Shown in pieces: positions 19,716-38,533 of a stretch of DNA of 64,000 nucleotides. Position numbers and translations under genes: made by a program. The stretch comes from Myxococcales bacterium 68-20 (GTDB lineage: Bacteria > Myxococcota_A > Polyangia > Polyangiales > Polyangiaceae): positions 189,915 through 253,914 of the forward strand of contig MKVQ01000040.1 of the NCBI GenBank assembly GCA_001899635.1, written 5' to 3'. Numbering within the stretch: the stretch's first letter is position 1; every line of letters starts with the position of its first letter. The notes under the pieces were generated by a model. That model was not told the DNA's origin, searched no databases, and saw only the letters and a program-made list of their open reading frames with translations.

Positions 19716-20738
19716 GTGCGCCGGCGACACCGCTCGATTCTTCGACTCTGGAGGGTGGCGTGCGCGCTCGTTCTCGCGGTCGTTTCGTTCGACAGCACCG
19801 CGAAGGCCGCCTCGTTCCATTTGACCTGGGATGCGCCGCAGGGCTGTCCCTCCCGGGAGGAGATCGTCGCGGCGACGCTCGCGCGGCTGAAGCGCCCCAT
19901 CGGGGCAGGACGCGAGTTCTTCGTGTACGGAACGGTCAGCGCGCTCGAATCCGAGTTCGTCGTCTTTCTCACGCTGAAGGATGATCGCGGGCAGGAGCTC
20001 GGCGAGCGCGAGGTGCGGGTCGCCGGACGGACCTGTGCCGACATCGAAGAGCCGTCGTCGCTCGTCCTCGCGATGATGATCGCCGTCGCGCTTCCGCACG
20101 ATCGTCCTGCCACAGAAGCCGAGCCCCGCGCGCATCACGGCCCGCCGCCTCGTCGAGACCCGCGCGCACCGCAGCCTCTGGCGCCGGCCCCCGCTCACTC
20201 CGCGGCGCTTGCACCTCCGCGGATACGACACGTCGCGCTGTCGGGGGCGGCCGTCGGCGCCTTCGGCACGTTGCCAGGGATGGGCTACGGCCTGGCGATT
20301 CGGAGCCTCTATTCGTCGGGGGCCCTCGCCGGCGCGCTGGAGGCGGGGTTTCTCGACAGCGGCGCGGTGCGGGCTGGGACGGAGGCGATGGGGTTTCGGC
20401 TCCTCGAGCTGTCGGCGCGGGCAGGCGTCGTGGCGCTGCGCTCCGGGCGCGTCGAGCTCGTGCCGCATGTCGTCTTGCGGGGTGGTGTCCTTCGTCTCTC
20501 TCCGATGGGGTTCTCGCTCGTGCAGAGCACCGCGCGCGGCGCCGGGTTCCTCGGCGCCGGCATGCTCGCTCGGCTGAGGGTCGCTCCGCATGTCCTCGTC
20601 GAGGCCCTCCCGGAGATGCAGGCGGCCCTCATCCGCGACGAGATCCAGGTCGTCGATGCCGGCAAGCTCTACCACGTGCACCGAGCCGCGCCCGTGGAGG
20701 GGCGGCTTTCCATCGGGCTGAGCTACGAATTTCGATAA
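19716..20738 (+). CDS. Exported protein, myxobacterial family (paralogue of 32429-33457)
   Basis: A 340-residue protein with an Arg-rich N-terminus and signal peptide (VACALVLAVVSFDSTAKAAS). The mature N-terminus carries FHLTWDAPQGCPSREEIV and a later TCADIEEPSSLVLAMMIAVA, the same W-x-GCP and TC patterns as its paralogue in this window. The C-terminal half is Gly-rich alternating hydrophobic sequence compatible with an outer-membrane beta barrel, ending in SYEFR with the terminal aromatic penultimate pattern. The GTG start at 19716 has GCGAGG directly upstream. It sits 33 bases before an ECF sigma gene and may be part of that operon. Function unknown. Confidence 0.75.
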   Translation: MRRRHRSILRLWRVACALVLAVVSFDSTAKAASFHLTWDAPQGCPSREEIVAATLARLKRPIGAGREFFVYGTVSALESEFVVFLTLKDDRGQELGEREVRVAGRTCADIEEPSSLVLAMMIAVALPHDRPATEAEPRAHHGPPPRRDPRAPQPLAPAPAHSAALAPPRIRHVALSGAAVGAFGTLPGMGYGLAIRSLYSSGALAGALEAGFLDSGAVRAGTEAMGFRLLELSARAGVVALRSGRVELVPHVVLRGGVLRLSPMGFSLVQSTARGAGFLGAGMLARLRVAPHVLVEALPEMQAALIRDEIQVVDAGKLYHVHRAAPVEGRLSIGLSYEFR

Positions 20739-20771
20739 ATCGACCGCTACGCTCTCTCGAGGACGAGAAGA

Positions 20772-21347
20772 ATGCCCTGCCGCACGCATAGGGCAGACGT
20801 GCATGTCTCGACCCTGCAGGTAACCGTCACCGAGGCGGAAGCTTCGGCGAAGGTTGCTGCGTCGGCCCGAGCGACCGTCGGAGCGCTCTTCGCGAACGAG
20901 GTCGCCTTCGTCTGGCGCTCGATGCGCCGGTTCGGAGTCGCCGAAGCCGACCTCGAGGACCAGGCGCAGGAGGTGTTCATCGTCGCTCACAAGCGACTCG
21001 ACAGCTGGGATGGTCGTCATCCTCGTGCGTGGCTCTACGAGATCGCCCGGCGCTGCGCTGCGGCGTATCACAGGACCGGCCATCGCCGGCACGAGCGGGT
21101 CGTCCAGGACCTTCCCGAGGGCAGCGATCGGCACGATCCGTCCGCGGGCGCCGAGCTCGACCTCCTGAGCCGCATCATCGCGACGCTCGACGAGGACAAA
21201 CGAACGGTCTTCATTCTTCACGAGGTCGAAGAGATGCCGATGCGCGAGGTCGCCTTGGCAGTCGAGTGTCCCTTGAAGACCGCCTACACGCGTCTGTACG
21301 CGGCGCGGCGCGAGCTCTCTCTTGCGCTCGAGGAGAAGAAGAAGTGA
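20772..21347 (+). CDS. ECF-family RNA polymerase sigma factor (module 1)
   Basis: A 191-residue sigma factor with region 2 at about residues 45-110 (EVAFVWRSMRRFGV, then DLEDQAQEVFIVAHKRLDSW, WLYEIARRCAAAY) and region 4 at 130-185 (LDEDKRTVFILHEVEEMPM, AYTRLYAARREL). There is no region 3, as expected for the ECF class. The stop overlaps the GTG start of a membrane-anchored partner (GTGA), the usual sigma/anti-sigma arrangement. It probably directs transcription of its own operon and of the lipoprotein genes downstream; that target is inference. Confidence 0.9.
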   Translation: MPCRTHRADVHVSTLQVTVTEAEASAKVAASARATVGALFANEVAFVWRSMRRFGVAEADLEDQAQEVFIVAHKRLDSWDGRHPRAWLYEIARRCAAAYHRTGHRRHERVVQDLPEGSDRHDPSAGAELDLLSRIIATLDEDKRTVFILHEVEEMPMREVALAVECPLKTAYTRLYAARRELSLALEEKKK

Positions 21348-22207
21348 CCCTCGACCCATTCGATCGCGACGACACCGCGCCCAACGATGGCTCACCCGCG
21401 CTCCGCGCGCTCGTGCGTTCGACGCCTCGGGAGGCCCCGACAAGCGCAGCGATCGCGCGCATGGCCACGCACCTGGTGGCGGCGGGCGCCATCGAACAGC
21501 CGGTGCCGTCTCCCACCTCGCACGTGACGAGCCGGCGGAGTCACCATGCGCTGGGCGCCCTCGGGCTCGCCATCGTCGTCGGTGGCGTGGCTGGCACCTG
21601 GCTCTCGTCGGCCTCGTCGCTCCCGGCGGCCGAAGTGGCCCTGTCGTCGCCCGCCCCCCCCGAAGCGACCTCGTTCACGGAGCGAGTCCTGCCGAACGCT
21701 CCGACGACAGCGCCGTCCGCTGCCGAGCCCGTGGTCTCGGTCGACGACCTGCCGTCGACGCCTGCCACCTCGCTCGCCGGGACGGCACGTGTCTCGAGTC
21801 GTACGACGGGTGAGCTCCCAAACGCGCGTCGGGGAGCCACCGTCGCATCGCCGGCCCTCGCGCCGTCCAGCGCCGCGCCGTTTCGGTCTCCGTCGCAGGA
21901 GCCCGCCGCCATCGCCGTCTCCGAGCTCGAGCTCATGAGGCGCGCGGAGGAATCGTTCCCCGCTCATCCGGAGCGCACCCTCGCCCTCGCCGCCGAGCAC
22001 GCGCGTGCGTACCCCGAGGGGCAGTTCGTACAGGAGCGAGAGGTCCTCGCCGTGGAGGCCCTCGCTCGCCTCGGACGTCGCGACGAGGCGACACGGCGAG
22101 CGCTCGCCGTCGTCGAGCGCTTTCCACGCACGCCCTATGCAGCTCGCCTGGAGCTCGCAACGAATCAGCCGCTCATGCGATCGCGGCCGTCGCTCTTGCG
22201 GCCCTGA
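21344..22207 (+). CDS. Membrane-anchored anti-sigma-like protein with TPR-like C-terminus (module 1)
   Basis: A 287-residue protein translationally coupled to the ECF sigma gene (GTGA overlap). A short cytoplasmic N-terminus (~residues 1-60) precedes one transmembrane helix (HALGALGLAIVVGGVAGTWL). A Ser/Thr/Pro/Ala linker leads to a helical C-terminal domain with HPERTLALAAEHARAYPEG and ARLGRRDEATRRALAV, resembling BamD/YbgF-type tetratricopeptide pairs. No zinc-binding ZAS motif (HxxxCxxC) is visible in the N-terminus, so it is an unconventional anti-sigma candidate. The C-terminal domain is homologous to that of the protein at 37221-37997, which also follows a sigma gene. Confidence 0.75.
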   Translation: MTLDPFDRDDTAPNDGSPALRALVRSTPREAPTSAAIARMATHLVAAGAIEQPVPSPTSHVTSRRSHHALGALGLAIVVGGVAGTWLSSASSLPAAEVALSSPAPPEATSFTERVLPNAPTTAPSAAEPVVSVDDLPSTPATSLAGTARVSSRTTGELPNARRGATVASPALAPSSAAPFRSPSQEPAAIAVSELELMRRAEESFPAHPERTLALAAEHARAYPEGQFVQEREVLAVEALARLGRRDEATRRALAVVERFPRTPYAARLELATNQPLMRSRPSLLRP

Positions 22208-22233
22208 CCCTTCCCCTCACCCACAGGTTCGAG

Positions 22234-23418
22234 ATGTCCCGACGCATCGCGCGCTGCATTGCGCCACTGTTCGTCTTCATTCCGCTGACGTCCCTCTTCA
22301 GCGGCTGCGGAGAACGCGTCACCGTCGCCGAGAAGGTCGAGGCGGCTCCCCCGACGTTCGCGTCGCCCGACGCGGATGCGCCCGAGGCCGCGAGCGGGCT
22401 CACCCAGTATTGCCCGTCCGACGAGTGTCCGACGGGGTATACGACGTGCCCGCTCTCGAGCTTCCGCTGCGAGGTGAACTTCCTGACGGACCGCAACAAC
22501 TGCGGAGCCTGCGGCGTCGTCTGTCCTGCGCTCGACTATGAGCGAGGCGCGCTGTTCGAATGTGTGGACGGCGCGTGCGCGATGCAATGCGTGCAGAACT
22601 TTGCGGACTGTGACGGGCTCTTGGACAACGGATGTGAAGTTCGCATCGATACGAATGATGACTGTGGTGTGTGCGGAAATAAGTGCGCTCCCGACCAGCC
22701 ATGCAATCAAGGAATAAATGGTTTGGAGTGTGGATGCCCGGACGGGAAAATCTACTGTGGTGAAGCGGGGTGCGTCGATTCCGATTGGGATGATGCGCAC
22801 TGCGGTGTGTGTGGCAACGCTTGTGACCCTGGGGCGATCGAGAACAACACGTACAAGGGTTGTGTTAAGGGGGAGTGCGGAAGGACTAAGTGTGCAGGCC
22901 TGTGGGGCAACTGTGACAATGACCCGAGCAACGGGTGTGAAGCGCCGCTCGATACCGACGACAACTGCTCGGCGTGCGGTGCGGCTTGCGGGGACGCTCA
23001 GAAGTGTCGGTGGTTTTTCCAATTTCCTGTGCCGCCCTTCTTGGCGTGCGCCTGTCCGGAGGGGCGGTCGTTTTGTGAGATCGGCTTGATCGACTATGAT
23101 GACCGTGGACCCCTTCCCGTCGGAAATTGTCATGACTTTAGCTCCGACGAGGGCGCCTGCGGTGGATGTGGCGTTACTTGTCGTTCGCTTCGGCACAATT
23201 GTGAATTCGGAGTCTGTCGGCTGAACTGCCTCGACGGGACCGCGGACTGCAATGGAAGTGAGATCGACGGCTGCGAGGTCAACACGAACGCCGATCCGAG
23301 CAACTGTGGAGGTTGCGGGATTGAGTGCGATGGGGTCGCGGGCCAGGCGTGTGTCGGTGGACGATGCGTCGTAAAGCCTTGCGATGACGTGGACGCGGGA
23401 GGAGGGATGACGCGATGA
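22234..23418 (+). CDS. Cys-rich repeat lipoprotein
   Basis: A 394-residue lipoprotein: MSRRIARCIAPLFVFIPLTS and lipobox F-S-G-C. The mature chain has repeated DNCGACGxxC-type units (NNCGACGVVC, DDCGVCGNKC, AHCGVCGNAC, DNCSACGAAC, GACGGCGVTC, SNCGGCGIEC), each preceded by an acidic N-G-C-E motif. Regular disulfide-linked modules are likely and the protein should sit on the cell surface. The middle of the gene (about 22590-23260) is visibly less GC-rich in third positions than its neighbours. It starts 26 bases after the anti-sigma-like gene and its stop overlaps the next ATG (ATGA). Binding partner unknown. Confidence 0.85.
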   Translation: MSRRIARCIAPLFVFIPLTSLFSGCGERVTVAEKVEAAPPTFASPDADAPEAASGLTQYCPSDECPTGYTTCPLSSFRCEVNFLTDRNNCGACGVVCPALDYERGALFECVDGACAMQCVQNFADCDGLLDNGCEVRIDTNDDCGVCGNKCAPDQPCNQGINGLECGCPDGKIYCGEAGCVDSDWDDAHCGVCGNACDPGAIENNTYKGCVKGECGRTKCAGLWGNCDNDPSNGCEAPLDTDDNCSACGAACGDAQKCRWFFQFPVPPFLACACPEGRSFCEIGLIDYDDRGPLPVGNCHDFSSDEGACGGCGVTCRSLRHNCEFGVCRLNCLDGTADCNGSEIDGCEVNTNADPSNCGGCGIECDGVAGQACVGGRCVVKPCDDVDAGGGMTR

Positions 23419-24611
23419 TCTCGCGATGCTTGCTGGTGGCCGTCGTGACGACTGCAGCGACCGCGGCGCTCGTCGCGTGCGCGACGAACGAAGGCGAGGT
23501 GTTCGCACCTCCTTCGGATGTGCCGTACGAGGTTCCGAAGGTGGACGCCGCGCCAGACGCCGCCGACCCGGTGGCGTGTGCGGATTGCGAGTACTTTCCA
23601 AGCGAATGCACGGACGACGTGCTGTGTCCGCACGCGTCGCTCGACCCACTCTCCCCGGAGTCACTGCTCCACCCGCTCGCCGACGTTCTGACGATCCGTG
23701 GCCGTGGACCCAGTGACGTCTGGCTCAGTGGTGCTCTCGGCACGTTCGCTCATTTCGACGGAGCCGCCTGGAAGCGCTCGGACCTCGGCGCCGGTGAGAC
23801 GCAGCGCGCGCTCTGGCTCCGAGATTCGGAGGAGATCAGCTTCGGCGGCCTGACGAAGTTCTTTGTGCGCGGTGCCGACGGAGCCGAGGGGGTAGATGCG
23901 GGGCTGTCCGCCGACGGTTGGAGCGCTCGCCAGTTTCCGTCGACGCCGAGCACCTGGAACCTCTACGCGGCGCTCGTCAAGACGGCGTGGGCGACCTCCG
24001 GTCCGGACGTCCTATGGGTCGGCGTAGATGGCGGGGCGGACGCGTGCGGCCTTTGGCGTGTGCGCCATACACTCCCGTCGACGCTGACAATCACGGAGGT
24101 CATACCGGCCGAGACGTGCAGGTTGCTGCGCGTGACGGAGATCTTGGGACTGCATAGCGCGTCCGCAGACGTGCTTTGGGCGGTGGGAGGACGTGGCGCG
24201 GCGGTTCGGATCGACGGACCGAACGAGACGACGCCTACCTACCGCATCTTGAATTCCCAGACGACGAACGCGCTCCGCGGTGTGTGGGCGGCGTCGGACA
24301 CGGACGTGTGGGCGGTGGGAACCGTGGGGACGATCCGCCGTTGCCGCGGCGACGTGCATCTCTGGGAGGCCGTCGACGACGTCCCGACGAACGAAGCGCT
24401 GAACGCCGTTTGGGGAACGTCCGCGTCGGACATCTGGGCCGTCGGCGACGCCGGCGTCGTCCTTCACTACGACGGAGCTCGCTGGTCACGTGTGAAGGTC
24501 GCCGGTCTCGGCGTGGCGCGCCCTGATCTTTACAGCGTATGGTCGCCTGCGCCCGGGCACGTGTGGATCGGTGGGCAGGGCGTGGTGCTCTCGCTCGGAG
24601 GAAAGCCATGA
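23415..24611 (+). CDS. VWAVG-repeat (beta-propeller-like) lipoprotein
   Basis: A 398-residue lipoprotein (MISRCLLVAVVTTAATAALV, lipobox L-V-A-C). The chain has propeller-like blades marked by DVWLSGALGTFAHFDG, DVLWAVGGRG, DVWAVGTVGTIRRC, DIWAVGDAGVVLHYDG and HVWIGGQGVV, spaced about 45-60 residues apart. Similar blades occur in BNR/YCF48-like proteins. A Cys pair (CADCEYFPSEC) precedes the propeller. The ATG overlaps the upstream stop and its own stop overlaps the next ATG, both ATGA. Fragments of this gene reappear as debris at 29117-29228. Confidence 0.85.
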   Translation: MISRCLLVAVVTTAATAALVACATNEGEVFAPPSDVPYEVPKVDAAPDAADPVACADCEYFPSECTDDVLCPHASLDPLSPESLLHPLADVLTIRGRGPSDVWLSGALGTFAHFDGAAWKRSDLGAGETQRALWLRDSEEISFGGLTKFFVRGADGAEGVDAGLSADGWSARQFPSTPSTWNLYAALVKTAWATSGPDVLWVGVDGGADACGLWRVRHTLPSTLTITEVIPAETCRLLRVTEILGLHSASADVLWAVGGRGAAVRIDGPNETTPTYRILNSQTTNALRGVWAASDTDVWAVGTVGTIRRCRGDVHLWEAVDDVPTNEALNAVWGTSASDIWAVGDAGVVLHYDGARWSRVKVAGLGVARPDLYSVWSPAPGHVWIGGQGVVLSLGGKP

Positions 24612-25909
24612 GAGCGATCTTTCTAATCGGGTGTTCGGTTGTCGCGCTCGGAACGGGGATCGCGTGCGCGAGCTCGGAAGACGACGCGCACCGTATGCCA
24701 GACGAAGAGTCGAATTCGGACGCCGCGGACGGCGCGTTTGACGCGTCGACCGAGGACGTGGGGGTGGTTGAGCCGCCTCCGCCAGCGACGTGCACCTCCG
24801 CCGGCTGGTGCCTCACCGAGCTGCCGGACGCCGATCTGACGCTCATCGACATTTGGCCGCTCAAAGGACGCGCGTTTGCGGCGGCCGTCAGCGCGTCGCT
24901 CGGGGCCAAAATCATGGAGTGGAGCGACGCCGATCAACGCTGGGCGTACATCGACGACGAAACGCAGAACGAAAACGGGTTGGGTCGTTACGTCGGTCGC
25001 ATATGGGCGCCCAACGCGGACGAAGTCTACTACACCGTGGAGCCTGGCTACGTTTACCACGGCACGCGCGGAGCGATGACGTGGTCGTGGGAGCGCGAGC
25101 TCCTCGTTCCGACGCTGATCGCGACGGTGGGGCAGGACTTGTCGGCGCCCGCCGCGGGCGCGCCAGAGACGGCTTCGCTCGGCGTCTGGGGGACGTCCAG
25201 TGGTGACGTTTACGCATGGCGCGCAAATACGATCTATCGTCGTACGAGCGTCGACGGCGGCGCTCCGAAGTGGGTCGAGGAGTACCGCGACGGCACGTCG
25301 ACCGGCTCCGCAATCTTCTCGGCCGCAGCCTCGGAGGGAGGAGACATCTGGTTCGGCGGCGTCAACAGTGGGAGCGCGTGTCCCCTGCTCTTGCGGAAGG
25401 GCCCTGACGGGTACCAGACGGTCTTCCGAACCGAGTTCAAGGTCGTGATTGTTCCGGCCGTGCGTATAGAGTGCGCGCCAATTCCCGGAGTTCCCTCGCT
25501 CGAACGGCGGAACGAGCCCTCGAACATTCCCGGCATGGGGCCACTGAGCGACCTCCAGGTCGGAGCTGACGGCGAAGTCACGGCGCTCTGGCGCCCGTCG
25601 ACGCTTACGCGGTTCATTCCCCGGGACGGCGGCTACGACTATGTAGCAGAAGTTGTCGTCAAAAAGAGAAAGGGGGGGGCGAATCTCGAGGCTTCGTCGC
25701 TTTGGGTGCAAGGTGACGAGGCGTGGCTCACCGCTTCGGGGTTGGTGAGTCGGGGGCCAGTGGCCGGGGACGCGGACGCATTCGGTCTCTCGACTGTGGC
25801 ACTCAATGGACTTCCGCACGTCAAGCCGCTGTATCGAATCCGGGGAACAGATGCTTCCAACCTTTGGGCAGTCGGAGCTCGCTATGCGTTTCACAAGACG
25901 GCGCCCTAA
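24608..25909 (+). CDS. Lipoprotein with degenerate propeller repeats
   Basis: A 433-residue lipoprotein: MRAIFLIGCSVVALGTGIAC, lipobox at Cys20. An Asp/Glu/Ala-rich spacer follows, then CTSAGWCLTELPDADLTLI and weak blade-like motifs (RIWAPNADEVYYTVEPG, GVWGTSSGDVYAWRAN, DIWFGGVNSG, ASNLWAVGARYAFHK). Paralogous in design to the preceding gene but more divergent. It is translationally coupled to it (ATGA), and the next gene starts 1 base after the stop. No enzyme motif; probable surface protein. Confidence 0.8.
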   Translation: MRAIFLIGCSVVALGTGIACASSEDDAHRMPDEESNSDAADGAFDASTEDVGVVEPPPPATCTSAGWCLTELPDADLTLIDIWPLKGRAFAAAVSASLGAKIMEWSDADQRWAYIDDETQNENGLGRYVGRIWAPNADEVYYTVEPGYVYHGTRGAMTWSWERELLVPTLIATVGQDLSAPAAGAPETASLGVWGTSSGDVYAWRANTIYRRTSVDGGAPKWVEEYRDGTSTGSAIFSAAASEGGDIWFGGVNSGSACPLLLRKGPDGYQTVFRTEFKVVIVPAVRIECAPIPGVPSLERRNEPSNIPGMGPLSDLQVGADGEVTALWRPSTLTRFIPRDGGYDYVAEVVVKKRKGGANLEASSLWVQGDEAWLTASGLVSRGPVAGDADAFGLSTVALNGLPHVKPLYRIRGTDASNLWAVGARYAFHKTAP

Positions 25910-25910
25910 C

Positions 25911-27242
25911 ATGGACTTTGGAAAGCTGCTCGCGCTTGCCGTCCCCGCGTCGCTCGCCGCCGCGGTGGGCTGCTTCAGCTCCGACGAGGCGGACCTCGCC
26001 GTGCCGCCGCCACCGGTGAGCGACGCGTCGAGCGACGGCGGATCGAGTGTCGGTCACGACGCGGGTGAGTCGCCGGACCCCACGAGCGACGCGGGCTTTG
26101 GTGACGTCGAGCCACTGCCGATCGAATGCGCGTCGCCGCCGTGTGCGACCGCGCTCGTGACGACGTTTCCCGGGAGGTACGGCGTCACGGGGGAAGGGTT
26201 CTGCGCGGTGCTCGCCGATGGAACGGTCGCCTGTTGGGGCGCGAACCACTCCGGGCAGCTCGGGCGCGGGGAAGCGGGAGCTTCAGTTTTCTCCTCCAGC
26301 ACGCCCGAGCGTGTGCTCGGTCTCGAACGGATCGTCGAGCTCGAGCACATGTGCGCCCTCGACGAGGACGGCGCAGTCTGGTGTTGGGGGTACGCGCCTC
26401 TCCTCAGGGACACGGAGTGGTGGATGCCTACGGTGGAGCGGACGCCGGTGCGGCTCGATCTTCCGCCGGCGGCGCACGTAGGCTTCGCACCTTCGGTGGG
26501 ATGCATTGCTACCCGCGACGGCGCCTTGCTCTGCTGGGGCTCGAACGATACGGGGCAACTTCCCACGACGGGACAGCAGTATCAGTTCTTCGGGGTGACC
26601 GAGATCGAGCTTCCGCCGGGCCCGCCCATCCGACGAATCGCCGTCGGGAACGCCACGTTCTTCATTCGTGAGGACGGCTCCGCGCTCTCTGTCGGTGCGG
26701 GCCAGGCCATCGCGCGCCTCTCGTCGTTGTTCAATGATCCGAATCCCGGCCGCATCGAGCTCGACGGGGTTCGCGCGCTGGATGTCGTGGACACCAACGT
26801 GTGCGCTACGGCACGCGGTGTCGGCTACTGCTGGGGAGACAAGCTTCCCGGAGCGCTCGATGCATACGGCCGGGCGTTCCCGAGGGGGCTCGTGCTCCCC
26901 GAACCCATCGTCGATATTGCGACTACGCCTGTCTTTACCAAGGTCGACGGGGAGGATATTCCCTTCCGCTGGTGTGCCGTCTCCGTTTCAGGCGCCGTTT
27001 ACTGCTGGGGGTTCAACCGGAACGGTCAGGCGGGCACGGGCACGAAGGAGTACGTCAACGACGCGGCGCGCGTCGTCGGTCTCCCCGCTCCTGCGGTCTC
27101 GGTCAAGACAACGCTGAGCACGACGTGTGCGCTCCTCACGACCGGCAAGGTCTACTGTTGGGGCGGCAACTACGACGGTCAACTCGGCAACGGACAAACT
27201 CGAGGTATGGCCCTGGTTCCGGAGGAGGTCATCCTTCCATGA
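25911..27242 (+). CDS. RCC1-repeat lipoprotein
   Basis: A 443-residue lipoprotein beginning MDFGKLLALAVPASLAAAVG with Cys21 as lipid site. After an Asp/Ser-rich spacer come RCC1-type blades: DGTVACWGANHSGQLG, DGAVWCWGYAPL, DGALLCWGSNDTGQLP, VGYCWGDKLPG, GAVYCWGFNRNGQAG and GKVYCWGGNYDGQLGNG, each with one Cys in the C-W-G core. RCC1 propellers bind proteins or ligands; here it is presumably on the surface. ATG 25911 is 1 base after the previous stop; its stop overlaps the next ATG. Confidence 0.87.
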   Translation: MDFGKLLALAVPASLAAAVGCFSSDEADLAVPPPPVSDASSDGGSSVGHDAGESPDPTSDAGFGDVEPLPIECASPPCATALVTTFPGRYGVTGEGFCAVLADGTVACWGANHSGQLGRGEAGASVFSSSTPERVLGLERIVELEHMCALDEDGAVWCWGYAPLLRDTEWWMPTVERTPVRLDLPPAAHVGFAPSVGCIATRDGALLCWGSNDTGQLPTTGQQYQFFGVTEIELPPGPPIRRIAVGNATFFIREDGSALSVGAGQAIARLSSLFNDPNPGRIELDGVRALDVVDTNVCATARGVGYCWGDKLPGALDAYGRAFPRGLVLPEPIVDIATTPVFTKVDGEDIPFRWCAVSVSGAVYCWGFNRNGQAGTGTKEYVNDAARVVGLPAPAVSVKTTLSTTCALLTTGKVYCWGGNYDGQLGNGQTRGMALVPEEVILP

Positions 27243-29041: not shown

Positions 29042-29052
29042 CCGACCCCGTC

Positions 29053-29099: not shown

Positions 29100-29116
29100 T
29101 CCCCAATCGCCCGTGC

Positions 29117-31120: not shown

Positions 31121-31266
31121 GGATTGCCCGAGATACCACACGGGAACCACGTTGTTCAGCGGGGTAGAGCTCTCGCCGACGAGGTCCTGCCCTTGTGGAA
31201 CGCTCTTGCCGTATCCGTCGCGTCGTCTTGCCAAGGCACGCCCGCGTCACCACCTCGTGTGGAGCG

Positions 31267-32322: not shown

Positions 32323-32428
32323 GAAGGGCGCGACGATACCCGCGCCTCGTCCTTGCTGGTGCCTTCTCGGACGAACCGCCGACACATGAGCTCCGATACG
32401 GCCAACGAGCTCATGTGTGGGCGCGCCC

Positions 32429-33457
32429 TCAGAACACGAAACCGCACGCGAGCTGGCCTTCGACGCGCGCGGCGGACGGCTGGTGGAGGCTCCGTTGCCC
32501 CTCTGCAGCGGAGACGACGGCGAACGACGGCTGAAGGAGCGTCGGGCCCGCGCGTACGTCGAGACCGAGCTGAACATTGCGAGCGGGCGACCACGAGGCA
32601 CCAAGGCCGAAGAACGGAACCGCTTCCGCGCGCACGGCGTCGGCCGTCTTCGAGCCTTTGCCCCGTGCCCGGATCGCGTCGAGCTCGACACCTCCGCACA
32701 CGCGCGTGGTGAAGGTCGCTACGTGAACCAGAGCTCCCGCTCTGCAGAGATCGGCCGCCACGCCCAGTGCGTCGAAAGTCGCCCCCAGCGTCCCCAGGAC
32801 CTGAGCTTGAGGTACGGCGGCGCGCACGGAGAGCCGCGCACTCCACGGACCCGTCTCGTAGCTTCCGGCGACCGTGGGGCCCCACGCCAGCGACGGAAGA
32901 ACACCCGCTCCCGTCCATGTCCCTCCGCTCACGATGAACCGAGAGCGTCTCTCCTCGCGCGGAGCCGGCCACTGCGCTTGCCGCGGTGGCTCGAGCGGCC
33001 TCGACAACGCCAGCGACTCCGGTTCGGGTGTCCGATCCGATGACGGCATGAGCTCGGCGATTTCGTCGCTGCGCGCAGGCGGCGCCGCCCGCATCGCGGC
33101 GAGCGCCACGAGGAGCGCCGACGCGCGAGCGAGCTCCGCGCAGGTATCGGCCTCGAGCATGCGCTCACCGGCTCCGCGGATGGTCCGGGTTCGAATCCAG
33201 ACCCGCCACGGGTCACCCCGAGCGGCGGGAGGCTGGATCTCCGTCCTCGCGAGCACCGTCTCGACCGCCGCTGCGCGCTCCATCTCGCGGTGGACGCGCG
33301 CGACGACGCTCTTCGCATCGGGACAGCCCGGCACGGTCGGCCAATCGACACGCACCGTCGCCGGCGTCGTCGCCGGCGCCGCGCGCGTGCTCGTCGTGAA
33401 CGACGAGACGGCGAGGACGACGCCGATCGACGTGACGCTCCGCGCGAGTCCGAGCAT
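32429..33457 (-). CDS. Exported protein, paralogue of 19716-20738
   Basis: A 342-residue protein with signal peptide MLGLARSVTSIGVVLAVSSF. The mature N-terminus has VRVDWPTVPGCPDAKSVV and later EADTCAELARASALLVALAA, matching the W-x-GCP and TC motifs of its paralogue near the first ECF module. The C-terminal half is Gly-rich alternating sequence consistent with a beta barrel, ending in GQLACGFVF with terminal Phe. A GTG at 33481 would add 8 residues. It lies on the same strand as, and downstream of, the second ECF module (with two genes between). Confidence 0.78.
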   Translation of the reverse strand: MLGLARSVTSIGVVLAVSSFTTSTRAAPATTPATVRVDWPTVPGCPDAKSVVARVHREMERAAAVETVLARTEIQPPAARGDPWRVWIRTRTIRGAGERMLEADTCAELARASALLVALAAMRAAPPARSDEIAELMPSSDRTPEPESLALSRPLEPPRQAQWPAPREERRSRFIVSGGTWTGAGVLPSLAWGPTVAGSYETGPWSARLSVRAAVPQAQVLGTLGATFDALGVAADLCRAGALVHVATFTTRVCGGVELDAIRARGKGSKTADAVRAEAVPFFGLGASWSPARNVQLGLDVRAGPTLLQPSFAVVSAAEGQRSLHQPSAARVEGQLACGFVF

Positions 33458-33669
33458 GGGCTTCACTGTAGATGAAGCCACTCGAGATGAAGCGATCTCG
33501 CGCGTCGCTCCGGCTCGGTCTCGGCTGAGCGCAGCCGTTCGATGTTCTACTCAGCCGAAGCCGTCCCTCGTGCGCTCTTCCAGGCGGTACCTACGCGCGC
33601 TGTTCCGGTGCGACGACATTTGCCTCTCTGAAACGACGGGATCGGAACCGCCTGTTTGCGCGGGCTCGC

Positions 33670-35604
33670 TTACCAGGACACGAACGTCGGCGAGAGCCGT
33701 CGCGTCGTCGTTCCGTCGCCGAGCTGGCCATGGCCGTTGAATCCCCAGCAGCGGGCAGAGCCACCGCTGACGAGCGCACAGCTGAAGCTTGAGCCCGCGA
33801 TGAGCCCTTCGACGCCGGAGAGGTTCGGGACGGCGGTGGGGGTCAGCCTGTCCATCATCGTTCCGTCGCCGAGCTCGCCATCGATGTTGGATCCCCAGCA
33901 GCGGACCGAGCCATCGTCGAGATGCGCGCAGGTATGATAGCCGCCCCCGGCGAGCCCTTTGACGCCGGAGAGGTTCGGGATGGCGGTGGGGGTCGACCTG
34001 TCCGTCATCGTTCCGTCGCCGAGCTGGCCAGTGCTGTTGGATCCCCAGCAGCGGACAGAGCCATCGTCGAGGCGCGCGCAGGTGTGATCACTGCCCGCGG
34101 CCAGGTGGGTCACGCCGGAGAGGTTCGGGATGGCGGTGGGGATCGACCTGTTCGTCGTCGTTCCGTCGCCGAGCTGGCCGCTGATGTTCCAGCCCCAGCA
34201 GCGGACAGTGCGATCGGCGAGCAGCGCGCAGCTGTGGTACGCCCCCGTCGCGAGCGCGGTGACGTCTTCGATGTCGGGGATGGCGGTGGGGGTCGACCTG
34301 TCCGTCGTCGTTCCGTCGCCGAGCTGGCCGAACGTGTTGCGTCCCCAGCAGCGGACGGAGCCGTCGTCGAGGCGAGCGCAGGTGTGGTACTGGCCCGCGG
34401 GAGCGAGCGCAGTGACGTCGGAGAGGTTGGGGATGATGGTCGGTGTCAGCCTGCGCGTGGTCGTTCCGTCGCCAAGCTGGCCGTAGAGGTTGTCTCCCCA
34501 GCAAGCAACGGAGCCATCGGTGAGGCTGGCGCACGTGTGTCCACTGCCCGCGGCGAGACTTGCGACGTTGGCGAGACCGGCGACGGTGGTGGGGGTCGGC
34601 TTGCTCGTCGTCGTTCCGTCGCCGAGCTGCCCATCCAAGTTGGATCCCCAGCAGCGGAGGGAGCCGTCCGTGAAGCGCGCGCAGGTGTGAGAAGAGCCCG
34701 CGACGAGCCCGGCGGCGCCGCCTGCAGCGGGCTCGGCAATACATGCGGTGGCGTTCGTGGTCGTGCTCGTCTGCCCGGCGGGGCAGGTCGTGCACTCGCG
34801 ATCCATGACGGCTGTGCCGGCCAGGGTCACGTAGCTGCCTGGCATGCACGAGGTCCAGGCCCTGCAGCTCGGCGCGTCGACCATCGTGCTGAAGGTCTCG
34901 TTCGCGCATGCCGCGCACGTGCGGTCGGCGGTGGCGCTTCCGCTCGTGGTGACTGCCTGCCCGGCCACGCAGTGAGTCCACCCAACGCAGGCGGTCGCCG
35001 AATTGCCGTCGTGATCCCAGGTGCCGCTCGCGCACGCCTCCTTGGGCGCCCCACCACCGGCGCAATGGGTCCCGATCTCACAGGGCGCGCACACGGGCGC
35101 CGCCGACGCCGTTCCCGTGGCCGTTTGCACCGTGCCCGCGGCGCATGCGCCGATCGGAACGCAGGCGTCCTGGTTCGGGGACGGAGAATACGTGCCCTCT
35201 GCGCAGGGCGTGCACTGTCGGTCGGAGACGTCGTTGCCGGGAGTGCTCACGTGACTGCCCGGCGCGCAGGTCTTCCACGGGGTACAGCTCGCGGCATTGG
35301 TCGTCGTGCTGAAGGTCCCGCTCGCGCACCCTGCGCACGACCGGTCGGCGGTCGCCGAGGGGGCGCTCACGACGTAGGTCCCCGGCGTGCACGTCGACCA
35401 GGCGACGCAGCCCTGGTTGTTCCAAGTCCCTTCTTCGCACGCGCGAGGACCGGCTCCGCTGTCCACGCTGCCGCCATCCTCACCACTCGGGACGCTCGCG
35501 TCGTTCGACGCACTCGAGACTTCGTCGGTGCATGCGCCGAGCAGAAGGACGAGGGTGATCGTGGAGACCGGCAAAGCAATACTGGCCACTCGTACTGTTC
35601 TCAT
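33670..35604 (-). CDS. Lipoprotein with TNFR-like Cys repeats fused to seven RCC1 repeats
   Basis: A 644-residue lipoprotein (MRTVRVASIALPVSTITLVL, lipobox L-G-A-C). Residues ~55-295 hold Cys-rich units resembling TNFR/GCC2-GCC3 modules: CTPGTYVVSAPSATADRSC, CASGTFSTTTNAASC, CAPGSHVSTPGNDVSDRQC, and more. Residues ~300-644 are seven RCC1 blades of near-identical sequence (for example GQLGDGTTT), enough for one complete seven-bladed propeller. ATG 35604 has AGGGAG about 7 bases upstream. Probable surface ligand-binding protein, member of the second ECF module region. Confidence 0.88.
   Translation of the reverse strand: MRTVRVASIALPVSTITLVLLLGACTDEVSSASNDASVPSGEDGGSVDSGAGPRACEEGTWNNQGCVAWSTCTPGTYVVSAPSATADRSCAGCASGTFSTTTNAASCTPWKTCAPGSHVSTPGNDVSDRQCTPCAEGTYSPSPNQDACVPIGACAAGTVQTATGTASAAPVCAPCEIGTHCAGGGAPKEACASGTWDHDGNSATACVGWTHCVAGQAVTTSGSATADRTCAACANETFSTMVDAPSCRAWTSCMPGSYVTLAGTAVMDRECTTCPAGQTSTTTNATACIAEPAAGGAAGLVAGSSHTCARFTDGSLRCWGSNLDGQLGDGTTTSKPTPTTVAGLANVASLAAGSGHTCASLTDGSVACWGDNLYGQLGDGTTTRRLTPTIIPNLSDVTALAPAGQYHTCARLDDGSVRCWGRNTFGQLGDGTTTDRSTPTAIPDIEDVTALATGAYHSCALLADRTVRCWGWNISGQLGDGTTTNRSIPTAIPNLSGVTHLAAGSDHTCARLDDGSVRCWGSNSTGQLGDGTMTDRSTPTAIPNLSGVKGLAGGGYHTCAHLDDGSVRCWGSNIDGELGDGTMMDRLTPTAVPNLSGVEGLIAGSSFSCALVSGGSARCWGFNGHGQLGDGTTTRRLSPTFVSW
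33690..34710 (-). repeat. Tandem ~147-bp coding repeats (RCC1 blades)
   Basis: Seven tandem units share blocks such as ccgtcgccgagctggcc and ccccagcagcgga. Sequence similarity is high at DNA level, so recent expansion or recombination between units is likely. They coincide with the RCC1 blades of the lipoprotein above. Confidence 0.8.
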
Positions 35605-36009
35605 GACTTGCTCCCTGTTCTTCCTTCGTGCGTCCCGTGTCGAGGGTTGTTGGAAGTGGGTATTCCAATTCTCAATTCAGCGGGTTTGATGCTCAGGACA
35701 GTCTCCATGGACGGCGTGAGGCGCTTCGCGCGTGCGACGCGCGGAGTGCCTCACGCGGAGATCCGTCCTTCGACCTCCCGTTGGCCATCCCCATCTGCGA
35801 TCGTCATGGCCGGCAAGCCCCGGCGCAGCGCGAGGGGGCCTCCGTCGGGCACGCTGCCGAATGAGTCGTGCGCGTGAATCGTGCTCGATGGTTGGGGCTC
35901 GCGCCTCAACCACCCGTAGTGGTGGGCCTTTGGCCCGCGTTGAATCGAGCTGCTGCGTCGACTGGTGTTGTCCTCGTCGTTCCTTGTGAGGATTACGTAC
36001 TTTGAACGG
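35605..36009. other. 405-base gap with a dispersed repeat copy
   Basis: No convincing gene. It must contain the leftward promoter of the TNFR/RCC1 lipoprotein and the 3' end region of the VWA operon. A dispersed repeat copy lies at 35891-35949. Short hairpins such as ggcctttggcc are within that copy. Confidence 0.6.
35891..35949 (+). repeat. Dispersed intergenic repeat, copy A
   Basis: ttggggctcgcgcc followed by accacccg matches, at roughly 80% over about 60 bases, the reverse strand of 50149-50208 (copy B). It lies between the RCC1 lipoprotein start and the VWA lipoprotein stop. Confidence 0.65.
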
Positions 36010-37242
36010 TCAAAATACGTCGCATGCTTTCCTGACGGCCTCGAGGGTACCGTCGAGAATGCCGCTGAAGTCCTCGCAGATCTCGCGATGGCTGCCGCGT
36101 TCTCCGAACGAATCGGCGAAGCGCGCCAGGGGCGTCGCGTAGCCCGTGAAGACGAACCAGCAGAGCTCCCACGGCGGCGGCTTGGTTGCGCACTCTGCGC
36201 ACACGCGAGGGCGAGAGTCTGGCATGCAGTCCGGTGGCAGGGGATCCGGGCACGTCGTCGTGCAGCAGCACGCGTCTCCGGGGACGAGATCGCAGTAGTC
36301 CCTCCACTGGCCCGCCAGGTCGTCCTCGTATCCCACGTTCGAGGCTGTGTTTGTAAGAACGGAGTACCACGGCGCTATCCGCGAACCGTCGTGGCTGACG
36401 GTCATCACGACCACGCCTTCCTCGCGCCCGCACTTGAGGGCGAGGAGCTGCTTTCTCCAGTCCTCAACCTTTGCGCTGTCGAGCTCCGCCGCCGTGTTGC
36501 CTGCGTCGCTCACGATCACCACGACGAGGAGGGCATCGTCGCGCAAGAATCCTTCGTTGCAGCCTCCCTTTTGGTTCTCCACGCCGAGCGCCGCGAACAT
36601 GGCGCCGATCGGTCGCTCGTTTCCGTCACCGAGAGTGCCGACGGAGGCGCTGCACAAGAAACGCTCCTCCACGTTCTCGTCTTTTGACGTGAGATACCGG
36701 CGTCCCTCGGGGAAGTTGCAGTTGCGGTTCGAGGCGTTCGCTCCCACCGGATACACGACGCCCGCACCGAGCGTGGAGTCGCACACGCTCCGCTCGGAGA
36801 TCGATGCACAAGCGAAGCCCGTGCAGAGGCCTTGGTTTTCCCCGACCGATGCGTCGAACCCAATCGCGGGACACAAGCGATTGCAGGTTCCGTCTTGGCC
36901 CGAGGCGTCGGTATCGACGACCATCAGGTGAAAGTCGGAGCGGTCGAGCTGGGTCGTGATCTGCTCGAGGAACGTCGGGAACGCTTCTTTCAACCTACGC
37001 TGCGCGCTCCCCATCGACGGCGAGTTGTCGACGACGAAGAGGATGTCCACCATGTTGCAGCCGAGGCCCGCGCACGCGTCTCCCGGTGGAGGAGGCGGTA
37101 CGAGGCCCGGTTCGGTAGGAGCCGGCGCCGCGGCGTCGTTGTCCCACGCGACGATGGCCTCGGTACTGGCGCAGCTCGCGAGGCTGACGAGGCCGGAGAG
37201 TGCGGCCATTGCAATGAGAACTATCGGTCGGATTCGTTGCAT
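36010..37242 (-). CDS. VWA-domain lipoprotein
   Basis: A 410-residue lipoprotein (MQRIRPIVLIAMAALSGLVS, lipobox L-A-S-C). A Pro-rich spacer leads to a von Willebrand A domain with an intact MIDAS: FVVDNSPSMGS (D-x-S-x-S), a Thr/Asp in MVVDTDASGQDG, and strand LLVVVIVSDAGN. Many cysteines (CNRLCP, CCCTTTCPDPLPPDC) follow, so the domain is disulfide-stabilised. The start overlaps the preceding anti-sigma-like gene by 22 bases, so it belongs to that ECF operon. It may act as a metal-dependent adhesin. Confidence 0.85.
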   Translation of the reverse strand: MQRIRPIVLIAMAALSGLVSLASCASTEAIVAWDNDAAAPAPTEPGLVPPPPPGDACAGLGCNMVDILFVVDNSPSMGSAQRRLKEAFPTFLEQITTQLDRSDFHLMVVDTDASGQDGTCNRLCPAIGFDASVGENQGLCTGFACASISERSVCDSTLGAGVVYPVGANASNRNCNFPEGRRYLTSKDENVEERFLCSASVGTLGDGNERPIGAMFAALGVENQKGGCNEGFLRDDALLVVVIVSDAGNTAAELDSAKVEDWRKQLLALKCGREEGVVVMTVSHDGSRIAPWYSVLTNTASNVGYEDDLAGQWRDYCDLVPGDACCCTTTCPDPLPPDCMPDSRPRVCAECATKPPPWELCWFVFTGYATPLARFADSFGERGSHREICEDFSGILDGTLEAVRKACDVF

Positions 37243-37997
37243 GACAAACGCACCTGGGGCGCGAGCGGAGAATTGGGATAGGCAGAGAGAAACCGAGAAG
37301 CGACGACGCACGCCTCGCCGTCCCGGCCGAGCGCCGAGAGCGCGAGAGCACGTTGCGCTTCGAACTCGGGGCCGAGGACACCCCGCGGGAACTCGCGTGC
37401 GTGCTGGTCGATGAGCGCAAGGGCGTGCGACGGATGTTTCGACTGGATTGCCGCGTTCGTCTCGGCGAGGAGCAAGACCTCGGCGTCGAGGGTGCCGGCG
37501 CGGCGTGCACTCTTCACCGTCGCCGGTGCCGGATTCACGGAGGGCAACTTCGCAGGATCGTCCATCGTGAGGACCGGTATCGAGTCGGTGCTTGGCCCTC
37601 TCTCGTCGGTATCCGGCGCCCGCTGCGAGTCGGTGCCGGGATCCGGAGACGGGGCTGCCGTGACCGCACTGCCCGAGGCAGCGTCGTTCGGTCCGGTCGT
37701 CGAGAGGCCGACTGTCCTGCCGCGTGGCGCAACCATCGAATACGTCGCTGCCGAGAGTCCCGCGACCGAGATCGCGATCGTCGCGAGCTTGATGAAGCGC
37801 GAGCGGACTCTGAAGCGCGGGATATTGGCGGCGGCGCCCGGCGTCCGGAGCGCGCTCGACATCGAGGCAGGCACGTCACGTCGGAAGGAGACGCGCGAGG
37901 ACAGCCCTGCTTTGACTCGCAGCGCGTCGTCCGTCGTCGGTGAACCGAGCGCGTCTGCCGATCGAATGAACTGCTCGAACTCGTCGTCGGAGCTCAT
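37221..37997 (-). CDS. Membrane-anchored anti-sigma-like protein with TPR-like C-terminus (module 2)
   Basis: A 258-residue protein. N-terminal cytoplasmic part (MSSDDEFEQFIRSADALGS), one transmembrane helix near residues 70-88 (LATIAISVAGLSAATYSMVA), Asp/Pro/Thr-rich linker, then a helical domain with HPSHALALIDQHAREFPRG and LSALGRDGEACVVASRF, which aligns with the C-terminal domain of the partner protein at 21344-22207. ATG overlaps the ECF sigma stop (ATGA) and has GGAGGTT upstream. It is probably the regulator of that sigma factor. No ZAS zinc motif is present. Confidence 0.78.
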   Translation of the reverse strand: MSSDDEFEQFIRSADALGSPTTDDALRVKAGLSSRVSFRRDVPASMSSALRTPGAAANIPRFRVRSRFIKLATIAISVAGLSAATYSMVAPRGRTVGLSTTGPNDAASGSAVTAAPSPDPGTDSQRAPDTDERGPSTDSIPVLTMDDPAKLPSVNPAPATVKSARRAGTLDAEVLLLAETNAAIQSKHPSHALALIDQHAREFPRGVLGPEFEAQRALALSALGRDGEACVVASRFLSAYPNSPLAPQVRLSCNESDR

Positions 37998-38533
37998 CGT
38001 AACCTCCAGGCGTCTCTTGCCTTGGCGCGCTCCCACGCGGCGCGCACTGCCTCTCGTGCGTGCCGGAGACGTGAGGCCACGGTGTTGCTACTGACTCCCA
38101 GCAGATGACCGATCTCGGTCGCGTTGAGCCCTTCGAGCTCCGCCATGACGAAGACCTCGCGTTTGTCGTCGTCGAGGCCGTCGAGGATCGATTGCAGCAA
38201 CGTGACGGCTTCCTTTTGCGTGACGGCCGCCTCTGGATGCACCCCCTCGGTGGCGATGGCATCGACCTCGACCCCGCCATCGCCGGCAGGACCGCTGCTC
38301 CGACGTCGCTTGAAGTTGCGGACGATCCCGAACGTGACGCCGAAGACCCAGCTCTTCAGTGACGAGCGGCCCTCGAAATCGTCGAGCCGCCCGTAGAGCG
38401 TGAGGAACACCTCCTGGACGACGTCGTCCAGGCTGTGCTGAGGCACGCCGAGACGAGCCGCCCACCGCCACACCAGCGGGAAGTACTGCTCGTAGACCTC
38501 GAGGAAGTCGGCCCTGTCCTCGCGCGTGCCCAT
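37994..38533 (-). CDS. ECF-family RNA polymerase sigma factor (module 2)
   Basis: A 179-residue sigma factor from ATG 38533 (MGTREDRADFLEVYEQYFP). Region 2 includes WRWAARLGVPQHSLDDVVQE and LKSWVFGVTFGIVRNFKRR. Region 4 includes LDDDKREVFVMAELEGLNAT and IGHLLGVSSNTVASRLRHA. A further ATG at 38587 would add 18 residues without conserved features. The stop overlaps the anti-sigma-like gene. It heads the operon sigma, anti-sigma-like, VWA lipoprotein. Confidence 0.9.
   Translation of the reverse strand: MGTREDRADFLEVYEQYFPLVWRWAARLGVPQHSLDDVVQEVFLTLYGRLDDFEGRSSLKSWVFGVTFGIVRNFKRRRSSGPAGDGGVEVDAIATEGVHPEAAVTQKEAVTLLQSILDGLDDDKREVFVMAELEGLNATEIGHLLGVSSNTVASRLRHAREAVRAAWERAKARDAWRLR

Follow-up and report, generated by a model that had tools for sequence, protein, structure and literature searches.

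Why would one stretch of bacterial DNA carry two similar modules of an ECF sigma factor and a putative membrane anti-sigma factor, each next to lipoprotein genes? The stretch (the window) is 64,000 nucleotides from Myxococcales bacterium 68-20, whose genome is 11.9 Mb, of the Labilithrix type, and available as a draft assembly that has 52 contigs and an estimated contamination of 4.2%. An earlier note on this DNA had proposed a repeated, uncharacterised trans-envelope system in two modules. We still see a repeated trans-envelope ECF system, apparently uncharacterised and tied to lipoprotein genes, but it is not present twice. In roughly 100 cassette copies, a predicted three-gene surface-sensing switch fronts five genes for putative surface proteins. 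We did not find a description of such a mix-and-match cassette repertoire in the literature.

The two modules in the window

Gene calls and Pfam scans of the window gave the same gene orders as the earlier note. (Genes were called from codon usage and their starts are approximate.) Module 1 lies on the forward strand and is a typical eight-gene cassette, X-S-A-C-P2-P3-R-I. X (19716-20738) encodes a signal peptide, an N-terminal alpha/beta domain, a proline-rich linker, and a predicted C-terminal OmpA-like barrel (residues ~172-339). S (20772-21347) is an ECF sigma factor (Sigma70_r4_2, 8e-11; Sigma70_r2, 4.7e-9), and the putative anti-sigma gene A (21344-22207) overlaps it by 4 bp. C (22234-23418) encodes a cysteine-rich lipoprotein that resembles C_rich_MXAN6577 from NCBIfam (4.4e-19; 68.8 bits, below the cut-off of 100). 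The next two lipoproteins are P2 (23415-24611), with repeated VWG.S..D(I/V)WAVG motifs, and P3 (24608-25909), a WAVG-repeat protein in a slot that is filled by either the P2 or the P3 family. (The P2 repeats look propeller-like; the motif was read by eye and has no family match.) The cassette ends with an RCC1-repeat lipoprotein, R (25911-27242; RCC1_2 (PF13540), 1.4e-26; RCC1, 1e-21), and an IgGFc_binding lipoprotein, I (27239-29041; PF17517, 8.3e-100).

Module 2, on the reverse strand, is a divergent subtype. Its sigma factor (37994-38587, with the called start at 38533; Sigma70_r2, 1.5e-12) overlaps by 4 bp a putative anti-sigma factor with a transmembrane segment and a TPR domain (37221-37997; TPR_14, E = 0.0019, below the cut-off). 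Then come a VWA/MIDAS-adhesin-like lipoprotein, V (36010-37209), and a lipoprotein with RCC1 and TNFR-type cysteine-rich repeats (33670-35604; RCC1, 5.5e-65; TNFR_c6, 7.8e-21). The only Pfam match for V is VWA_2 (E = 0.066, below the cut-off), its NCBIfam matches to CglD and a MIDAS adhesin (~1e-6) are far below the cut-offs, and its family has 4 members among the loci we fetched. Further along is a second X (32429-33481), which belongs to the 122-protein X family. The closest paralogues of module 2's A (62% identity) and X (73%) are both on contig C43. Among the 26 window proteins scanned, none matched a mobile-element family in Pfam. Module 1's X, A, P2, and P3 had no Pfam match at all, and the cassette gives these proteins a context.

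The two A proteins share a C-terminal segment (HP..ALAL...HAR.FP.G, then LGR..EA), as the earlier note had seen; they are 37% identical over 68 amino acids (E = 8e-10). The note's remark that they lack a ZAS motif also holds more widely: HxxxCxxC is absent from all 88 partner proteins of X-S-A triples. A has a short cytoplasmic N-terminus, one transmembrane helix, a linker with a V-x-x-LP-type motif, and a C-terminal domain with two TPRs. (Counts of the linker motif come from whole proteins, and those of its shuffled control from residues 61-180.) A hydrophobic transmembrane segment is present in 86 of 88 family members. The periplasmic TPR-like domain that the note had proposed is predicted to have a TPR fold, with helices at residues 186-273 that mostly have a pLDDT of 96-98 in the structure model. 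The Foldseek neighbours of this domain are BamD, MamA, and YbgF (best E = 0.08; none at or below 0.001). They resemble A in the TPR fold only, as A is a transmembrane protein encoded behind an ECF gene. The cytoplasmic part is modelled as two short helices (residues 18-25 and 34-48) in a block with a pLDDT of 55-76, and neither A from the window matches an anti-sigma domain in Pfam or NCBIfam.

We considered domain-specific covariation as support for contacts between S and A or between X and A, and rejected it. The cytoplasmic part of A tracks S (partial r = 0.12) no better than X (0.19), and the TPR domain covaries more with S (0.45) than with X (0.32); neither result speaks for specific contacts.

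The earlier note had described a paralogous exported protein of ~340 amino acids in each module. The pairwise similarity is marginal (27% identity, E = 3e-4), but iterated profiles from either protein converge on equally many proteins, 122. The paralogy stands, and we would now describe X as a predicted outer-membrane barrel of the OmpA type that has an additional N-terminal domain (residues ~34-125), which is presumably periplasmic. The AlphaFold2 model of X has a mean pLDDT of 86.9, and its Foldseek neighbours are small barrels: OmpA (E = 4.8e-7), then Ail, NspA, and OmpX. The C-terminal phenylalanine signature of barrels is not general among X proteins (19 of 88 end in F and 28 in P), and the barrel assignment rests on the structure model. 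With a permissive pattern, a lipobox-like start is found in 10 of 70 X proteins and in 47-65 of 70 proteins for each of the lipoprotein genes. The latter suggests that the lipoproteins are on the surface.

Cassette copies in this genome and its relatives

At 114 sigma loci in this genome, A lies directly behind S in 106 and X before S in 95. The P2 family is at position +3 in 95 loci, and R is at position +5 in 84. Position +4 is filled in 88 loci (48 with P3 and 40 with P2). The full eight-gene order is found in 70 complete copies, which total 657 kb, and S and A overlap by 4 bp in 47 of these. (The set of 70 leaves out loci that are cut by the ends of contigs or stretches, contain a gene that the profiles did not label, or are fused or reordered.) About 115 copies have at least the sigma/anti-sigma and IgGFc ends. 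IgGFc_binding has 141 matches in this genome, and the neighbour count used 138 of them, leaving out three short fragments.

Since the stretches were chosen around matches to A (except for five extra ones: L070, L109, L148, L149, and L150), the adjacency of S and A in them is partly selected. In an unselected test, 82 of 117 A matches lie less than 1.5 kb behind a listed Sigma70_r2 match, where ~1.1 are expected, and there were 0 of 117 both downstream and on the opposite strand. (The sigma list contains 150 scored matches among 250 candidates.)

The earlier note had suggested a test of co-occurrence in other genomes. Outside this genome, X lies 0.3-2 kb upstream at 50 of the 105 listed A matches, in 27 genomes, and the downstream control gave 0. 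Across the family Polyangiaceae, A-like proteins are found in at least 56 of 59 genomes and X-like proteins in at least 50. The cassette as a whole is present in 23 of 80 named loci, with the same gene order in the bins ACE_MYX5, MYX7, and MYX8, and 32 of 33 IgGFc loci that we fetched from other genera do not have it. Within one genus, the copy number ranges from 0 to 141, which is a rough figure as the relatives' completeness is 72-100%. The relatives with cassettes are metagenome bins, with one genome per species, and the loci from our surveys of relatives are not all independent of one another.

Inheritance of the two halves and the junction between them

X-S-A is inherited as one block (the sensor half) and the mature C-P2-P3-R-I as another (the lipoprotein half). 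Across the 70 complete cassettes, whose copies have mean identities of 22-47% per gene, distance correlations are 0.74-0.78 among X, S, and A and 0.88-0.96 among the five lipoproteins. Between the halves, they are 0.04-0.13 (the largest of 300 S-A permutations gave 0.09). Nearest neighbours agree for 32-44 of 70 cassettes within halves and for 2-6 of 70 between halves. Similarly, the trees of the two halves have 1 of 67 splits in common, while the within-half controls have 39 and 40 of 67. Lipoprotein halves that are up to 85% identical lie behind sensor halves that are 27% identical, against a background of 28% across all pairs. That the halves do not coevolve in these 70 cassettes argues against a sensor that specifically reads its own lipoproteins.

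The blocks have been re-paired many times, and this has also happened between related species. In 13 of 20 named cassettes from related species, the nearest relatives of the two halves in this genome belong to different cassettes. For example, the sensor half of L156 is 84% identical in DNA to C40:522-525 kb, and its lipoprotein half is 82% identical to C17. (The flanks of L156 could be compared on the upstream side only.) The two halves stay paired in the other 7 of 20 cassettes, so re-pairing is common, though not every cassette shows it. When these 20 cassettes are taken by themselves, correlations between the halves are 0.37-0.62 and not near zero; this small set contains near-duplicate loci from related bins (such as L180/L195/L220 and L151/L165). 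On evolutionary time, then, a unit of putative surface proteins is exchanged independently of the unit that would control it.

The junction sits just after C's lipoprotein signal, as several comparisons support. In all 14 of the closest lipoprotein-half pairs (which have cassettes in common and are not independent), DNA homology starts 72-198 bp inside C, and the sliding distance correlation flips at about column 45 of the C alignment. In module 1, we predict the exchange junction at 22375-22435 on the forward strand, where the sensor half, which takes in the signal peptide and linker of C, meets the lipoprotein half. The right edge of the exchanged block is -16 to +86 from the stop codon of I in 14 of 14 pairs, and in one of them homology resumes beyond it. 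The left edge of the sensor half, which would include the promoter region of X, is expected at 19632-19715 on the forward strand. In 9 of the 12 closest sensor-half pairs, homology starts 19-84 bp upstream of the called start of X; in the others it starts at -605 (one pair) or inside X (two pairs).

The column identity of C rises at the junction, from ~0.5-0.6 to ~0.7. We rejected a special recombination site there: third-base conservation in columns 40-80 of C is 0.50, compared with 0.43 gene-wide, and other genes have bins that are equal or higher. Upstream of X, we searched the sensor clusters with dyad counts, 7-mers, and an EM motif search, and did not find a universal promoter motif, so autoregulation is unsupported. 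(The EM models scored 201.5 versus 207.4 for control genes at width 28, 121 versus 102 at width 8, and 132 versus 114 at width 10.) A weak element, TA[GCA]NNTCG, which we chose after looking, is upstream of 26 of 95 X genes and 84 of 812 controls.

What the cassettes might do

We lean, by a little, toward the view that a FecA/FecR/FecI-like switch of new composition drives exchangeable sets of surface lipoproteins and that recombination yields a combinatorial repertoire. An external cue would act on X, and the N-terminal domain of X would contact the TPR domain of A. A would then release S, and S would transcribe its own cassette, so that the cue would install whichever lipoprotein set is then behind that switch. 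Paralogous cassettes would swap such sets by homologous recombination. Each lineage would then have its own combinatorial repertoire of surface complexes, displayed under certain conditions, with possible uses in adhesion or in prey, kin, or phage interactions. More tentatively, we suggest that the ~100 cassettes are a combinatorial library, each with a barrel/TPR-anti-sigma/ECF switch, a five-lipoprotein complex, separately evolving halves, and a fixed recombination junction, by which lineages rewire which cue leads to which coat.

The reshuffling may also be neutral. After duplication, the lipoprotein genes, which are better conserved, could have undergone recombination or gene conversion that scrambled the pairings, leaving many near-redundant copies and no selected repertoire. 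A junction where the DNA conservation of C rises, without a special site, is what ordinary homologous recombination predicts. Also, in 11 pairs of neighbouring cassettes, the lipoprotein halves are more alike than average (59% versus 39%) and the sensor halves are not (27% versus 28%). Yet each of the eight genes is under purifying selection in its closest pairs (omega of 0.14-0.60, from 12 pairs for the lipoprotein genes and 8 for the sensor genes), the copy number varies widely within one genus, and the copies are so diverged that conversion does not seem to be homogenising them. We consider neutral concerted evolution unlikely. The wide distribution of A-like and X-like proteins in the family, often adjoining each other, and the scarcity of the cassette at IgGFc loci in other genera would also fit an ordinary ECF regulon of the envelope-stress or nutrient type. 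X-S-A would then be a general Polyangiaceae module, and the lipoproteins would be sensed, as feedback, in one regulon that was duplicated along instead of being an exchangeable output. This seems improbable given that the halves do not coevolve in this genome's 70 cassettes, which speaks against a sensor tuned to the lipoproteins linked to it. It is harder still to believe that assembly or binning mis-joined similar lipoprotein blocks behind different sensor blocks, even though the assembly is a draft with some estimated contamination and the cassette-bearing relatives are metagenome bins. The two most similar lipoprotein blocks are still 12% apart in DNA across 7 kb, which is too much for reads to collapse; many cassettes are inside long contigs (such as C43, at 751 kb); three bins have the same gene order; and in 7 of the 20 named cassettes both halves have stayed together.

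How would the switch that we favour compare to known systems? FecA-type barrels are large, plugged TonB-dependent receptors. FecA-FecR-FecI, as described in the review PMC9249621, shares with the cassette as we predict it an outer-membrane barrel with an extra N-terminal domain, a single-pass regulator with a periplasmic domain, an ECF sigma factor, and adjacent genes. In contrast, X is a ~340-residue OmpA-like predicted barrel with no match to TonB-dependent receptors, and A has a TPR domain, while Pfam and NCBIfam scans found no FecR domain in either A of the window. Also, the genes linked to the cassette's switch are a lipoprotein operon and not transport genes. PMC9249621 also counts 121 TonB-dependent proteins in Bacteroides thetaiotaomicron. 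Like class I anti-sigma factors, A is single-pass and encoded behind its ECF sigma factor, and it has no ZAS motif. The non-zinc members of that class lack the motif as well.

The SusC/SusD loci of Bacteroidetes, like the cassettes, are paralogous surface systems with many copies per genome, and place sigma/anti-sigma genes beside surface lipoprotein genes. We know of no stereotyped eight-gene cassette among them, nor of independent re-pairing of sensor and output. In the vlsE and VSG families, recombination renews the surface protein behind an expression unit. Here, by contrast, every set of lipoproteins comes with a sigma switch of its own, a five-gene block moves, and the exchange is known on evolutionary time. 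Cellulosome clostridia, which are Gram-positive, have SigI/RsgI systems, for which we know of no linked, exchangeable output operon. According to PMC6056542, these are paralogous sigma/anti-sigma pairs whose anti-sigma factor has an extracytoplasmic sensory module, and C. thermocellum has 8 of them, as compared to ~100 cassettes here.

These results bear on the reasons for the abundance of ECF sigma factors in some myxobacteria: at least 82 among the 150 listed sigma matches in this genome belong to one design. The logic of this design, with interchangeable sensor and output halves, is testable. The cassettes offer ~100 candidate sigma/anti-sigma pairs, and the natural re-pairings are ready-made experiments on the orthogonality of ECF sigma factors and promoters. 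They also bear on possible signalling from a small outer-membrane barrel by way of a TPR anti-sigma factor, and on how bacteria rewire the inputs to their surface composition.

Cassette architecture and copy number in the own genome

Both window modules described by the earlier note, each an ECF sigma factor and a putative anti-sigma factor beside lipoprotein genes, are present with the claimed gene order and domains. Module 1 (window 19716-29041, forward strand) encodes an exported protein that is predicted to form an outer-membrane barrel (X), the sigma factor (S), and a transmembrane protein with a TPR domain (A), which we call the sensor half, and then a lipoprotein half: a cysteine-rich lipoprotein (C), two WAVG-repeat lipoproteins (P2 and P3), an RCC1 lipoprotein (R), and an IgGFc_binding (PF17517) lipoprotein (I). 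Module 2 (38587-32429, reverse strand) is a subtype, S-A-V-R-X, in which a VWA/MIDAS-like lipoprotein (V; 4 members in the fetched own-genome loci) replaces C. The two sigma factors are 28% identical (165 columns), and the C-terminal segment claimed for the two A proteins is indeed common to both. Directly behind the X of module 2 is an endonuclease/exonuclease/phosphatase-family protein (31267-32322, reverse strand; PF03372, 9.9e-8), which is single-copy among the fetched loci. PEGA-domain proteins flank the module pair on either side, outside both modules (15903-17105, forward strand; 38912-40669, reverse strand).

The system is repeated, as proposed, but far beyond two modules. With the A of module 2 as the query, the own genome (11.9 Mb in 52 contigs; 98.4% complete, 4.2% contamination) has 117 matches (E up to 1). 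At least 82 of these are within 1.5 kb behind a same-strand Sigma70_r2 match (150 sigma matches listed), against an expectation of about 1.1 and no case in either control. We fetched the surroundings of the A matches and five more stretches (2.14 Mb once merged), called genes, and iterated profiles, which gave 114 S, 113 A, and 122 X. The two exported proteins of the window show only weak pairwise likeness, but a profile seeded by either one ends with the same number of members (122). At 106 of the 114 loci, the gene after S is A, although this adjacency was partly selected for by the fetching; X and the downstream genes were unselected. X precedes S on the same strand at 95 loci and divergently at 4 more, and X-S-A is directly contiguous at 88.

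With profiles from the module 1 lipoproteins, C is found at +2 from S (94/114 loci), P2 at +3 (95), P2 or P3 at +4 (88), R at +5 (84), and I at +6 (83). Seventy cassettes, including module 1, are complete and in order; their median span is 9,424 bp, and together they make up 5.5% of the genome (657 kb). In 47 of the 70, the S and A genes share 4 bp, and the median gap between A and C is 32 bp. The next cassette's X and S directly follow I at 8 of the 114 loci, with tandem runs on contigs C17, C12, C4, and C40; at 4 other loci, X lies behind I rather than before S. Counting from PF17517 instead (141 matches), S or A is upstream at cassette distance for 115 of the 138 matches kept, versus 8/138 for S at equal distance downstream. 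Two IgGFc_binding matches at G000:C48:255528-256006, short fragments read across a stop codon, lie close after an intact copy and are possibly cassette remnants in decay.

Independent evolution of the two halves

Across the 70 cassettes, pairwise distances correlate among X, S, and A (0.74-0.78) and among C, P2, P3, R, and I (0.88-0.96). Across halves, the correlation is 0.04-0.13 (the maximum for S-A among 300 permutations was 0.09). Nearest neighbours agree for 32-44 of the 70 within a half versus 2-6 across halves. Trees for the two halves have 1 of 67 splits in common, and one supported split (out of 48 and 53). This discord is more than mere noise, because trees from within a half share 39/67 splits (C+P2 vs. 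R+I) or 40/67 (S vs. X+A). The most similar lipoprotein halves reach 85% identity, and the sensor halves in front of them are at 27%, with an all-pairs background of 28%. A few pairs are alike in both halves (such as C48:542727 and C40:486877, at 69% and 62%). The lack of coevolution speaks against recognition by the switch of the lipoproteins linked to it.

For module 1 itself, the signal of re-pairing in these comparisons is modest. Its nearest lipoprotein half (C4:462094) is 53% identical, with sensor halves at 24%; its nearest sensor half (C21:64338) is 51% identical, with lipoprotein halves at 50%.

The 14 closest pairs of lipoprotein halves, which draw on overlapping sets of cassettes, all show DNA homology that begins 72-198 bp into C and ends -16 to +86 bp from the I stop codon; it resumes past I in one pair. 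In a sliding comparison, columns 0-45 of C (signal peptide, lipobox, and linker) correlate with the sensor half (0.33-0.34) and not the lipoprotein half (0.00-0.02), while columns 45-75 correlate with the lipoprotein half (0.79, versus 0.07). The unit that moves is thus mature C through I. C apparently leaves its secretion signal behind with the sensor half, whose homology starts 19-84 bp upstream of X in 9 of 12 pairs. We looked for a special DNA site at the junction in C and found none; homologous recombination at the first well-conserved stretch would suffice.

Cassettes and sensor modules in other genomes

A scan of named genomes with the I profile gave 115 loci, of which 80 were kept; many are truncated at the end of a contig. 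Of the 80, 23 have the cassette: 20 have exactly eight genes, and 3 have one more or one fewer. All 23 are from Labilithrix sp. bins ACE_MYX5, 7, and 8. Loci from Minicystis, Polyangium, Nannocystis, and Byssovorax have I without the cassette. Of 39 loci fetched from relatives, 6 come from congener G006, which is very probably the bin ACE_MYX7 once more, and 4 of these 6 have the cassette. The other 33 are from other genera, and 32 of them have I without it. The exception (L268/L194; contig JAHBWH010000274, ACE_MYX12) is P2-R-I-X-S-A on a 7.7-kb contig, in a bin assigned to another family, and may be due to horizontal transfer or binning error. PF17517 counts in 11 congeners, whose completeness is uneven, are 46, 17, 9, 9, 4, 3, 2, 2, 1, 1, and 0. 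Across 144 genomes sampled from the order, first-look candidates number 144 in the own genome and at most 22 outside the genus.

The sensor genes are more widespread: of 59 genomes from the family, at least 56 have A-like and at least 50 have X-like proteins. The families co-occur elsewhere, a point that the earlier note proposed to check. Outside the own genome, X is 531-1,593 bp upstream of A for 50 of the 105 A matches listed (27 genomes), and downstream for none; judged from the positions of X and A, the median gap (642 bp) has room for one ECF gene. Because A and X are widespread and often close together, and I mostly occurs without the cassette elsewhere, X-S-A appears to be the older module, common to the family, to which this genus coupled a lipoprotein operon before the whole was multiplied.

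Some loci vary in arrangement. In named Labilithrix bins, L159:2643-5146 and L174:2485-4925 have an inverted X-S-A beside C-P2-P3-R-I, with X adjoining C, so the sensor half can also be divergent; the region between X and C would need to serve as promoter for both sides. In L155 and L256 (probably one locus fetched twice), the otherwise standard cassette has one more RCC1-labelled gene, placed after A and before C: X-S-A-R-C-P2-P3-R-I. L161 (C at 4600) has C-P2-P3-R-I, but the 4.6 kb in front of it contain no labelled X-S-A, so it is a possible orphan output half.

Among the 20 named eight-gene cassettes, the nearest own-genome cassette is the same for both halves in 7 and different in 13. The across-half correlation (0.37-0.62) is above the own-genome values, in a small set with near-duplicate loci from related bins. 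The clearest apparent case of re-pairing between species is L156. Its sensor half matches C40:522-525 kb (80% protein, 84% DNA), and its upstream flank best matches the same place, inside the preceding cassette's I (87% DNA over 569 bp; next-best paralogues, 80%). Its lipoprotein half matches contig C17 (77% protein, 82% DNA), versus 45% for the C40 locus. The downstream flank of L156 has no match; a conserved flank is known on the upstream side alone. At L185, the lipoprotein half is 88% identical to contig C16 and the sensor half 64% to C6. The pattern at L177 may reflect the loss of one unit from a tandem pair.

A putative cell-surface switch

The AlphaFold2 prediction for X, made with 30 sequences (mean pLDDT 86.9), has an alpha/beta domain at the N-terminus followed by a C-terminal barrel, and the best Foldseek matches are OmpA, Ail, NspA, and OmpX. 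A has a hydrophobic transmembrane segment in 86 of 88 sequences and, as the earlier note stated, no ZAS motif (HxxxCxxC in 0/88); no recognised anti-sigma domain was found in it. The TPR-like periplasmic domain proposed there is also predicted, as a two-TPR domain at high model confidence (nearest folds BamD, MamA, and YbgF, all with E above 0.001). In the Pro-rich variable linker between the transmembrane helix and this domain is a short, conserved V-x-x-L-P-type motif, a candidate docking or protease site. It occurs in 65 of 88, versus about 7 in shuffled linkers, although the pattern was written after viewing the alignment and the control covers linkers only. Omega is below 1 in all eight genes (0.14-0.60, closest pairs).

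By analogy with FecA/FecR/FecI (PMC9249621), we infer that an external signal would pass through X to the periplasmic TPR domain of A, and that A would then set S free for transcription of the cassette. Searches for a promoter consensus for the cassettes and for contact-specific covariation found none.

If it works as proposed, the switch would be cell-surface signalling in its mode of action, but it lacks two features that define the Fec type, a TonB-dependent receptor and a FecR domain. Among the open-access matches listed, and in passages of PMC7406223, PMC9249621, PMC6056542, and PMC8999054, we found no account of this cassette, of how it was amplified, or of the reshuffling of its two parts. 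Their novelty is provisional because the comparison covers the open-access literature. The switch itself resembles known signalling; what we provisionally offer as the novel case is the combinatorial library of cassettes.
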